64,000 nt of DNA from Heliocidaris erythrogramma. Taxonomy: Eukaryota > Echinodermata > Echinoidea > Camarodonta > Echinometridae. Position numbers and translations under genes: made by a program. The stretch is from assembly GCA_025617745.1 (NCBI GenBank), contig CM046856.1, positions 36,450,208-36,514,207 of the forward strand. The letters run 5' to 3'. Shown in pieces: positions 37,283 to 49,200 of the stretch (its first letter is position 1; the number at the start of each line of letters is the position of its first letter). The notes beneath the pieces were generated by a model. The model was not told the origin of the DNA, made no database searches, and worked only from the letters and a program-made list of their open reading frames with translations.

Positions 37283-40200
37283 CTGTGCGATTGTTAAAAT
37301 TGGAAACAAAAGAAACACATGAAGAAACTTCGATAAACAATGGTTATACATGAATATTTTCATTGTTGTTACATATTAAAAAGTCAATTAGTTTTGCACT
37401 TTTCCTACCTTACAACCCATTATTTCTCTTGGATTTAGAGGGTAAATGACAAGGAAAATTCCTGATTCCATTGGTGTGATAAATACTATTACAATTTTAA
37501 TTTGCTAACACCCCAAAACAAACCTTTTGGTCACATTTCCTTGATTTTAGGTGAGAAATAGCAAGATACGAACAATTAAGGGTGAAAACTAGTTTCCACC
37601 ACCAGCTAGGATAGGGCACTTGTAAAACAAATGAACAGCATACAGTGATTACTGATAAAACATGTAGCCTTCAGTAAGTCTTCCTTTTGAATGTAAAATA
37701 CCCTACATGGACAGAACATCAGATATCTGGGCCCCCGTCTCATAAAACTTGTTATGAATAGTACAATAATTGTTATAAGCTCCTGAAATCCTTGAATCTG
37801 ATTGGCCGAGAACAAATTTGTCACAGAAATGGGGCACTTAATTGTTATTGAGAACAAATTTTATGAAACAGGGCCCAGGCTTATGTATTCTTCTGATACA
37901 TATTCAACAAGTTTCATTCCAATGTTCATTTTCGCTCAAAGAACTAGAGATTATCTTTAAACTGACCTTGTTGACCGGTTTCTCAGCTGTAAGGTCCATG
38001 TTACCCAGGTGAATGGGTGGCATGACAAAGTCAGACTTGGCATTGAGGTTGGATTTCTCTCTGGATATCCTCACACCACTCTTCTTCAGGACGTCGGATG
38101 CATTGGAATCTTCTGCAATAAGGGAAATGATAAACGTTTTACATTTAATTATTCACAGCTTGATTACTTGTTAATATGACACAAATCTGTTTAATATCTG
38201 TATTTCTTTTCAAATCATAGACTGAAAATGAATTTGAACAAAATTCGAACAGGAAATGTAGGCTGTCCAACTTTCTAAACCCATTTTAGAAGCATACATT
38301 TGAACAAAAATAAATAGAAAAATGCTAATATATTAATAAACATGGGATTTCATTACCATCTGTTTATATATAAACCTATTTTAGAAACACACATGCACAC
38401 TAGATTTGAACAAAACATGAATAAAAAGCAATGTAGATTGTTCAACAAAGCCAGCATGAATGTAAATCTGTCCTATGAACACACTCTAAAAACATACATG
38501 GATATCAAGCCAATTTGATATTAATGCATGTATGAAAATATCAATTTAGTTGTTTCTAAATCCAGCACTTTGGTTCACACATCATGCTGTAAGGATTGCA
38601 ATGTGGACCATTCATCTAGAAACTATCAGAATTAGAATCCAGATAATATTTATGCTTACATATTGTAATAAGAGGGATAAAGCTGGATATTAAAGTTACC
38701 TGTAGTTTCCTTTATTGAGTTGCTCTGCTTCTCCTTAACACCCCTTGCCCTCGCGCTGTCCTTGGCGCTGCTCTTGGCCTGGGCCCCGCCCTTATTGACG
38801 GCCGGCAGCTGGAAGACCCCTCCGCTTGACCCTTCACCTTTGGCCTCTTGACCCTTGGCCGCCGTCTCCTCCTTCTGAATGTCTCTCACAGTCTGCTGGT
38901 GATGCGTGCTGTGTTGATGCTTGTTTCTATGGTGATGATGATGGTGGTTGGTGGTGGTGGTGGTGGAGGAGGAGGAAGTGATGGTAGTGGAGGACCGGTG
39001 TTTGTCCTTGGACTTGGTGTGGGTGATGCCTTCTTGGATGAAAGGATGCTGCAAGGCTTGGTCTGGGGTCAGCCTCTGAGATGGATCCCATCTACAATAC
39101 GGTTTGAATTCATGATATAAGGTATTGTTATTGACTGCATGCACATCTAGAAAAAAATATAAGACCTTGGATTTTACATTTTACATGTGTAGGTCCTTAT
39201 GTTGTCAACTCTCTGAGATATCAATAAAAAGAGATGCAATTTTGTATATGTCAATAAAATAAAACTGACATGCTCGTTTAGTCTTAGAAACCTCTGCTCA
39301 GTGTAGAGTGCATCTTGAAATAATACAGCTGACTTCATAATCGTTCATTATTGTAATAATCTAATTTCCATTTAATATGCATTTTCACAGGGCTTAAAGC
39401 TGATTTATCTAGGACTTAGTCTTTAACTTACTCTAGGCATCTTTTGATGAAGTCTAAGAACTGAGAGTCGCCTGTCTTGACTGCATAACCTAGATCCTTG
39501 GTGTTGGGTCGCCTCTTCTTTCCTTTACTGTTAGTGATGCACCGTGGGTTACCTCTGGAATCTATTGAGAAGAGAATTTGACAAGATATAATATAATTAC
39601 AGCAGCAGCAGGACTGGGCGTTGTGGCGTGCGCCTGTAATCCAGCGAACAATGGAGGTTATAAACTGATTCAACGGACCCAGGTTCGAGACTGAGTCACG
39701 TCTTTCGGATGGTGACGTTCAAGGTCGGTCCCCAGATGTAAATGATCATATCTGATTGAAACACGTCTGTAAAATCCCAATTACACACACACACACACAG
39801 CAGTGGTGGTATTAGATGCAGTTGGCAGTAGCAGTAGTAGTAGACGTAGTAGACGTAGCAGCAGCAGCAGCAGTAGTAGTAGAGGTAGTAGTAGTAGAGG
39901 TAGTAGTAGTAGAGGTAGTAGTAGTAGAGGTAGTAGTCGTAGTCGTAGTCGTAGTCGTAGTAGCAGCAGCATAGTACCAGTACCAGTAGCAGTGGTACAT
40001 GTAGCAGTATACATAAGATATATATTTCATCAAATTCTTACCAAAGAATAGTCTTCTTCTCTGTGCTTCTTCAATAATGTGAGGAGGAGGAATTCCGAAG
40101 ATCTGGAAGAAAAAAAAATCAACACAAAAGTATAGTAACATTTGTAGTGCATTGAAATCACTTAGGTGTTAGTATATGTATTAATAAATAAAATGACTTT

Positions 40201-46200: not shown

Positions 46201-49200
46201 AATAAGAGCAACATTTCAAATGCACACATATCCATCCCAAGGGATGATCAAGGCACCTAACATTTATGAAAACGATGTTGAAAATTATATAGGAAAAAAT
46301 TAATAATATTGAATGTGTAACAATTGTGAAATAATGACAATGAATGATAGTTGTTTTTTTTAATTAACTCACCATTTGGCTTCATATGGACCCTGCTTTC
46401 CTTTCCTTCATTTTTTGACGATCTTTTGAGTTCATCTCTGTTGGAAAATAATGCGCAGTTTAAGTAATAAAGCATTGCAACAGGATCCAACGAATATAAG
46501 GATAATATATATCAAAGCTTGCAAGCTAATTATATAGAACAAATTGCCATTTTCTGTCTGCATTATAGGTATACAAAAGAGAATTATACATACAAGTTAG
46601 CCACTTTTTTCTACAGCAAAAATTGTGATAATTACTTCTTTCAGTTTCAACAAAAACTCAGTCATGAATGTACTTTTGTCACTTAATTACTCATGAGCTT
46701 CTGATTATCCCAGGCATTCAGTGATTAATATTCAGAAATTCAGTTCAGTTTTGAAACTGTTTGTCTACACTGAGAATCCATCAGCGAATTAGCCTTTCCT
46801 GAATGCTGCCCTCTCCTGACCAAATTGGGGACAGTGACCACTGCTGTGATTGGTTGAAAGTATCACTAAGGTAAACACAACACATCCAGCATGGCAGCCA
46901 TATCAAGGGGTGAGGGAATAGGCTTTACATATTTGTTCATGATTTGCAAAGGAAGAGGCAAATTATTTCTGGGAAATTATGAAGAAATGTTCATCTGATA
47001 TCTATAGGGAATCAACAGGCAGGAAAAACAAGCATACACACACACACACACCCTCACCCTCACCCTCACACACATACACACAGAAAAGACAAAACAACAG
47101 ATGCAATTTTAGTCAAAGTTTTCAGTAGGCCTGTGAAGTCATGATATCCTTATTCATGTAAATGCGAATGATTATAACCAAATGAAAATAGACTTCTGAT
47201 CAATAATTTATTGAATTGTACCTATCTGCAAACTGAATTACAGGAACAGTCACATCAAAACAACAAAAATATTATCACAAAGCTTAAGGAAAACATAAAT
47301 AATAATCTTGACACTATTGATTCAATAGCAAGCACTTTCTTTCTTAAGGTAAAAAAAATAAGATTGTTTATTATCTGAGCTTATGATTTGAAGTGGCAGC
47401 TATAGTTTTTTTGAAATAATATTTTTCATTATCATTATTTTTTTATTATCATTCAAGCCAAGGTCATAATGTGAACACTATAACGAACAATTCCTACACA
47501 TGGAAACCCTCTTTATAAACTAGGCAAAAAAAGAAAAGAATATCACCATCAAAAAACAACTTTAACAAAATGAACTCAAGGGTAATTTCAATATATAGAA
47601 ATCATAGTCAGATTATTTGATCGTCATGGTAATGTTTGAGCATTTCAAAATATGATGTACAAACCTTTTGAAATTGCCCTAGTTTGACTTATACAAAGTC
47701 TCTGGCCTGTATTCTCAATTCCACTTTAATTTTAACCCTTTCCATGCCACCAGTCTTCTTAGCAAATGTCAAAAATGTATTTTCAAAAGTTGAATATTAA
47801 CTTTCAAAGAGTTTTTGCTCGAGCAAACTGGGCAAAGATATATTGCTTAGGAATAAACATTATACTGACGGCACAGGTTTCTGTATGAGGAAGAATTTTC
47901 AAGCCATTCTTAGCCTAAAAATAAAGTTCAACGCTCAAGTTTTTGGGCGGGATTTGCCGCCCACGGCATGGTAGGGGTTAACACCAGTCTAAGATAAACC
48001 ACAGGTTAATTAAAACTGACTAAGGGGGTGTTGCAAGAAAGTTGCGATCAATTGCAAGTCCCTCAAATCAGTTGCAAGTCTTGCAATTGATTGCAAGGTC
48101 CATTTAAAATACATGTTATGTATACATACATTTGCAATACATCGATTGCAAAAGGGGGATTTGCAATTGATTGCAACTTTCTTGCAACATCCCATAAGAC
48201 TGCAAGTCCAGTCGAAATTTCTGTATACAGTTAAAACACACGTACACTGGAGTGTTGTAGCGTGCGCCTGTAATCCAGCTAACAGTGGAAGTTATAAACT
48301 GATTCAGCAGACCCAGGTTCAAGACTAAGTCACGTCTTTCGGATGGTGACGTTAAAGGTCGGTCCCCAGACATAAATAATGATATGTGATTGATACACAT
48401 CTGTACAAACCCAATCACACACACATTGGAGTGTAAGTTAAACCAGAGTTCAGATTTTTGCTAAAACCCCGGTTTAAAGGGCAGGTTTAGACTGGGTTTA
48501 AACCACACTTAGATTGCGGTTTTACGTTGAACCAGAGTTCAGAATACGGGCCTTTGTGATCATATTCAATATGGACTTACAGTTTGGTGGGTTGTCTATG
48601 AGCCTTGATGTGTTCCCCTATGGTAGTCTGATGAATACCAGAGGCAACTAGATGCCCCTGGACGTTGGTGAGTTGGGGTAAGGACTCGCCCACGGTGCTA
48701 CTCTTGGGGCCTAGGGAGAGCTGGGGAAACGTGGTCTGGCCCGAGGTCGCCGGCGGAAGACTGTTGGAGAGTTTCTAGAAATGGGTAAAAAAGAAAAAAT
48801 GGTTTTGACTGATTTCATCACATCCAAGACTGCAAAAGAGAAAAAAATGGACAAGAGCAATGAGCGATATAGCTATGGAAAGCTCTTAAAGATTTCTAGT
48901 AAAAAACAAAGAATAAGAAATGTCACAAGCAAATCATATATTTACTAAATCCCAAAAGAGCTCCGGTCATGAATTAAAAAAAACTGATCTACACCTATAA
49001 TTGCTAATAACTATTTGAGCCTATTTTTGATAATATAATCAAGGATGGCACTAAAGATCTTCTTTTTCCACTAATTGACTGAATGAAAGTCCTTTATTAA
49101 CAACATTTCATCAAAATATAATACAAATTGATAATCCATTCCTTTGGTAAGAGGACAATACAAGATGGCAATACTGGTAGAAATGGTGCCCTTGTTGAAC

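Follow-up and report, generated by a model that had tools for sequence, protein, structure and literature searches.

The 64,000-nucleotide (nt) stretch of the sea urchin Heliocidaris erythrogramma analysed here (the window; contig CM046856.1, positions 36,450,208 to 36,514,207) carries two copies of a short interspersed nuclear element (SINE) that we read, with a probability of about 0.92, as a chimera of 7SL RNA and a tRNA-type SINE, in which the 5' part of the 7SL Alu domain is joined to a B box, a body and an (AC)n tail that come from another family. Throughout, SINE1 denotes the 7SL-headed chimeric family and SINE2 the tRNA-type parent family in the same genome. The two copies, at 39613-39799 and 48246-48424, belong to one dispersed family and are 93.5 and 92.4% identical to the SINE1 consensus. 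Aligned with each other (39613-39791 with 48246-48425), they share 88% identity over 180 columns (E 7e-62), which bears out the pair of copies proposed in the initial annotation, with starts now at 39613 and 48246 instead of 39611 and 48247.

Comparison with the host's own genes shows the first 46 nt of SINE1 to descend from host 7SL RNA, beginning at the first nucleotide of that RNA. Nucleotides 1-46 of the element are colinear with nucleotides 1-44 of host 7SL, each beginning at nt 1, with 43 of 46 positions identical and a single 2-nt insertion; the leading 36 nt agree exactly. The alignment scores 39, the mean for shuffled sequences is 9.3, and none of 1000 shuffles equalled the observed value. 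The initial annotation, which had noted the resemblance of the head to 7SL, allowed that it might fall to background once the host RNA was used, and the opposite was seen: the local score of the head is 39.5 with host 7SL and 21 with human 7SL, the two RNAs being 80% identical over aligned positions. Covariance models, also proposed there as a check, agree. In a cmscan search of 4227 Rfam families, positions 1-44 of the metazoan signal recognition particle (SRP) RNA model, Metazoa_SRP, were the top match for both window copies (E 4.4e-6 and 29 bits for copy 1, E 0.0076 and 17.7 bits for copy 2) and SRP was again first for a copy identical to the consensus (L050; E 1.3e-7, 34 bits), where the runner-up, mir-1268, reached E 0.029. 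All three scanned copies stay below the 70-bit gathering score of the SRP model, which is to be expected of a head that spans just 44 of the 299 model positions, and none has any match to the Rfam tRNA model up to E 10. With SRP on top in all three, a tRNA or another Rfam family is excluded as the source of the head.

The likely donors are still present. A genome search with the Rfam SRP model, which took 26 of its 11405 first-look candidates to scoring, returned 18 full 7SL genes above the cut-off, 12 of them on contig 16 (C16), and 8 matches below it, all of which, among the 26 scored, are copies of the SINE1 head; matches below the cut-off also occur with this model in 10 of 14 control genomes. 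Ten of the 18 genes match the head at 43/46 and the other eight at 87-93%, one of these being truncated, and the genes nearest to the head are ten on contig 16. The 7SL genes L030-L038, L041, L042 and L045 stand in arrays at C16:41.25-41.72 Mb with steps of ~2 kb, and the C16 genes read GCTAC where those displayed from contigs C4 and C1 have GTTAC or GTTGC.

The remainder of the element comes from elsewhere. One SINE1 copy (L007) adjoins a diverged element that has only the non-head part of SINE1 in common with it, and this neighbour, used as a query, gave 40 matches including itself, the other 39 at 71-88% identity. The SINE2 consensus was built from 30 of these 40, the query itself among them; since it was built on diverged copies, it may contain a few wrong positions. 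Its head is unlike that of SINE1 and contains the A-box motif TGGTCTAGCGG, its B box reads GGTTCGAAACT, and it aligns to SINE1 from nt 47 through the tail over 134 columns. The joint is therefore base to base, nt 46 being the last of the 7SL match and nt 47 the first of the SINE2 match, and it is from these two adjoining ends that we conclude to a head replacement: SINE1 is, as judged from the alignments, a SINE2 whose A-box half has been replaced by the 5' end of 7SL. The SINE2 parent persists in the genome as more diverged copies, and the joint is found in thousands of exact copies.

The two halves of this evidence also decide between the chimera and two simpler accounts. The initial annotation had offered, as its alternative, a SINE of tRNA type whose A-box region resembles 7SL by chance. 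This is right for the element from nt 47 on, where B box, body and tail are all those of a tRNA-type SINE, but not for the head, whose 36 identical nucleotides from 7SL nt 1 were unmatched among the 1000 shuffles and whose alignment to that of SINE2 scores no more than 7.5 (a score given without a shuffle control). Chance resemblance is ruled out by the host 7SL alignment, and an ordinary tRNA-type SINE seems to us vanishingly improbable. Conversely, the element could be Alu-like and contain the entire 7SL Alu domain, its downstream half having diverged past recognition. The initial annotation had seen the order and spacing of the Alu domain downstream of the head, and its landmarks are indeed there: CCCAGG and GGTTCGAGACT / GGTTCAAGACT are both found in the window copies, A box, CCCAGG and B box follow one another in an order that resembles Alu, and the gap from A box (39617-39626) to B box (39682-39692) in copy 1 is 55 nt. 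Yet SINE1 positions 47-181 score 8 against the whole host 7SL, with a shuffle mean of 9.3 and 946 of the 1000 shuffles doing as well or better, while the same positions align with SINE2, B box upon B box, as its 3' two thirds. A downstream order and spacing after the Alu domain of 7SL is thus not supported, and the B box is not 7SL-derived. A full Alu-type head is ruled out by the SINE2 alignment, leaving the Alu-like account very improbable.

On the chimeric reading, the parts of the window copies can be delimited as follows, all on the plus strand. In copy 1, the 7SL-derived head (7SL nt 1-44 plus the 2-nt insertion, which falls in the loop of helix H4) occupies 39613-39658, as placed by Rfam and by alignment to host 7SL, and contains the UGU motif as well as the A box, whose position follows, by homology, that given for the A box of human 7SL in PMC7245038. 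The SINE2-inherited part, comprising B box, body and 3' hairpin, extends over 39659-39782 according to the SINE2 alignment, and the (AC)n 3' tail, read from the sequence, over 39783-39799; other copies end alike. Copy 2 has a more diverged head at 48246-48292 (alignment and Rfam SRP), a SINE2-derived part at 48293-48415 with B box at 48316-48326, body and 3' hairpin, and an (AC)n tail at 48416-48424. By eye, TGGAGTGT is found in the first bases of copy 2 and again directly after its tail, and because of this repeat it is possible that the copy is slightly 5'-truncated with a short target duplication.

SINE1 is a dispersed and uniform chimera in many copies, unlike single 7SL retrocopies. Among the 48 matches listed, which represent 40 of 895 candidates scored and are best matches, not a random sample, 18 of 26 contigs are represented, and the flanks vary between copies (by eye) except in two flank-sharing pairs. 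The consensus, likewise drawn from best matches in a 29-row alignment that includes copy 1 (L001) and leaves out the partial match of L021, is ~170 nt long, opens with ACTGGGCGTTGTGGCGTGCGCCTG and closes with (AC)n. A 41-nt probe spanning the junction, searched for exactly, matched 1102 + 1160 = 2262 times, and the reversed control 0 + 0 times; the figure is a lower bound because the probe counts one variant and tolerates no mismatches. A sample of 50 kb of arbitrary DNA, too small for copy number, contained a single body fragment but no 7SL head. Four of 39 rows agree with the SINE1 consensus at every position (the rows are partly duplicate, at least two of them representing one place), and the best SINE2 copy among the 40 scored, out of 1792 first-look candidates, is 94% identical to its own. 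Because whole copies reach 100% in one family and at best 94% in the other, we read SINE1 as probably the younger of the two.

Three further observations concern individual copies. Copy 1 (C4:36489808) recurs with nearly unchanged flanks ~93 kb away (L002, C4:36582726), perhaps through a segmental duplication carrying the SINE, and L003/L004 on contig C9 form a second such pair with common flanks. At ~1429-1571 of L054, on the minus strand, lies a short SINE1 variant without the segment from GTGGA to CCCAGG, a likely deletion between short repeats. A tail-only match at ~2750-2800 of L072 was considered as a possible end of a long interspersed nuclear element (LINE); the longest frames around it show no reverse transcriptase by eye, and it may be a truncated SINE.

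The part of 7SL that was kept corresponds to the 5' domain of the Alu fold, with the closing pairs ACU/AGU (H2), helices H3 and H4 and the UGU turn, as given by the Rfam structure line. This turn is recognised by SRP9/14 (PMC8137916, extract). Among matches that begin by nt 3 and reach at least nt 60, UGU is unchanged in 39/39 rows and the 11 pairs of H2, H3 and H4 are formed in 34-39 of the 39. We propose a single origin in which reverse transcriptase would have jumped from SINE2 RNA to 7SL RNA during retrotransposition, swapping the A-box half of SINE2 for the 7SL 5' end; DNA recombination would be an alternative route to the fusion. RNA polymerase III would start at 7SL nt 1, drawing on an A box of 7SL type and, 55 nt on, a B box of tRNA type, and the 3' hairpin AGACGT...ACGTCT and (AC)n tail would be read by a LINE that had served SINE2 too. 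The retained H2-H4 and UGU may bind SRP9/14 and take the RNA to ribosomes making the LINE protein, a delivery modelled on the proposal for Alu. It is a more tentative suggestion, and one we hold to be rather doubtful, that the bare 5' Alu domain (~44 nt: H2, H3, H4 and UGU), without the 3' domain, would suffice for the advantage that the full Alu domain confers on Alu and the hagfish element, and that the family would then have displaced its tRNA-headed parent and spread via a LINE other than L1 and RTE.

Several observations weigh against the interpretation given here. The putative tRNA derivation of the SINE2 head rests on its boxes; scored against the canonical A and B box consensus, these reach 7/7 and 8/10, values equalled by 91 and 56 of 1000 SINE2 shuffles, and cmscan made no tRNA call on the best-matching SINE2 copy (L060). 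The tRNA-type A-box motif is absent from the SINE1 head, where the A box is identified by homology only. A search with the whole SINE1 consensus gave 0 candidates, in a procedure that skips very common genome words, and the ages compared above derive from best matches, not random copies. Target duplications are short or unseen, an 8-12 base-pair repeat other than a microsatellite lying near the tail in 4/39 rows. As for the fold, the retention of the helices in copies so young carries little functional information, and the predicted folds are not better than those of shuffled sequences (z -0.73 for the whole element, 0.18 for the head). The H4 loop is altered by the 2-nt insertion, A replaces C in 19/39 rows at one loop position that we take to be part of the H3/H4 loop-loop pairing, and the 3' domain of the Alu fold is absent from SINE1. 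The same features of the fold, together with the A box in the head, favour the view that the 7SL head is a polymerase III promoter only and the SRP9/14 fold a by-product with no role in mobility. This view rivals only the last step of the proposed mechanism, and we give it slightly less than even chances, since the 7SL part stops where H2 closes, so that the full 5' domain and UGU are retained.

With regard to the surroundings, copy 1 lies antisense within an intron of a class-II DYRK kinase gene on the minus strand (exons recognised within 39428-42725), between two exons. The exons were read by eye within the stop-to-stop frames 42447-42725, 41773-41961, 40861-41343, 40504-40731, 39812-40168 and 39428-39718, and the sole exon tested, of 74 amino acids, matches DYRK2 at 9e-37. 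Both copies had initially been placed in DYRK4 introns. The intronic position holds for copy 1; copy 2 is ~5.5 kb upstream of the first recognisable kinase exon, for which reason its position in an intron is unsupported. The gene, a class-II DYRK kinase, may be DYRK4 or DYRK2. Elsewhere in the window, a tRNA-like gene at 28924-28992 on the minus strand is followed by a T run and scores 31.7 bits with the Rfam tRNA model, with no ARAGORN call; its anticodon loop reads CTA by eye, as in an amber-suppressor-like or pseudo tRNA. A frame at 43137-43463 on the minus strand has an end resembling a DDE transposase by eye and is probably a Tc1/mariner remnant. Long simple-repeat tracts occupy 30900-31370, 41409-41747 and 53465-53959, and the observed/expected CpG ratio is 0.51 in the window and 0.82 in the 50 kb of arbitrary DNA, taken from elsewhere in the genome. 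A tektin exon of this genome matches PDB chain 8snb_8Q, of the Strongylocentrotus purpuratus sperm doublet, at 219.7 bits with 104 of 113 residues identical, the next chain, a Tektin-1, reaching 130.2 bits. A second tektin exon fits chains named Tektin-3 more closely than any 8snb chain (138 and 104 bits) and may be a paralogue missing from that structure, or speak against an echinoderm. Taken with the CpG ratios and the 7SL identity to human, the exons make an echinoderm host most probable.

In the literature consulted, established 7SL-headed SINEs come only from Euarchontoglires and hagfish (PMC7245038), in line with the initial statement that they are known from few vertebrate lineages. No invertebrate 7SL-headed SINE is reported in the open-licence literature searched, an entry in Repbase or Dfam under another name being possible. 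Because its structure differs both from Alu/B1 and from the hagfish family, the evidence of this one genome speaks for an independent origin of the presumed echinoderm family, as had been suggested at the outset. In the searched literature, such an origin would have no precedent beyond vertebrates, and it would be the third independent one. The chimera could instead have been imported from another species or be far older than the host's group, which a comparison limited to this genome leaves room for; we regard this as unlikely, given that the head is the host's own 7SL at 36/36 leading nt and that the SINE2 parent resides in the same genome. With parent SINE, donor RNA and chimera together in one genome and a base-exact joint, how a SINE arises through replacement of its head becomes directly readable. 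Likewise, a natural minimal head would allow SRP9/14 binding and promoter to be tested against each other as drivers of SINE success, because it lacks the 3' half of the Alu domain.

Compared with known systems, the combination of parts in SINE1 is distinctive. In both known lineages, the head combines the two end regions of 7SL, 5' and 3', without the S domain in between, and has a 7SL B box (PMC7245038, extracts, also for the vertebrate families below). The 7SL 3' region is missing in SINE1, whose nt 47-181 are at background against the whole 7SL, as is the 7SL B box, and for lack of these two common parts it would be filed separately; it has no tRNA-derived head either, as would be expected of a tRNA-headed SINE, there being no tRNA match in the three copies scanned. 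The family is best filed, as far as its sequence tells, as a chimera of SINE1 and SINE2 type whose 7SL head is minimal. Among echinoderm elements, SURF1/SINE2-4c_SP, SINE2-3_SP and SINE2-8_SP of sea urchin are short SINEs that may, by description only, be relatives of SINE2; tRNA heads and a partner LINE, CR1 or L2, are listed for them (PMC3747384, extracts). P7SL_MD of marsupials and P7SL_Cpo of guinea pig are also repeated 7SL-derived copies, but they consist of full-length 7SL with poly(A) and are not accepted by the author of PMC7245038 as families of the SINE1 class, whereas the urchin element has a short 7SL piece in a chimera. Alu, B1, FLAM-A and PB1 start with the same 7SL 5' end and A box; Alu and B1, however, are made of 7SL only, with 5' and 3' regions and poly(A), where urchin SINE1 has a SINE2 body and (AC)n. 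Tu SINEs of tree shrews and GarnAlu of bushbaby are likewise 7SL/tRNA-SINE chimeras, belonging to the Euarchontoglires lineage and likened here by description only. The hagfish element SINE1-1_EBu of Eptatretus burgeri is likewise a fusion, of a 7SL head with the 3' portion of an older tRNA-type SINE from its own genome, and it too is young and not a poly(A) element of L1. Its head, however, combines 96 nt of the 7SL 5' end with 44 nt of 3'-like sequence and so retains the B box of 7SL and the Alu domain in both its halves, and it ends in an RTE tail with AAC repeats, in contrast to the ~44 nt of 7SL, tRNA-type B box and (AC)n tail of the urchin SINE1.

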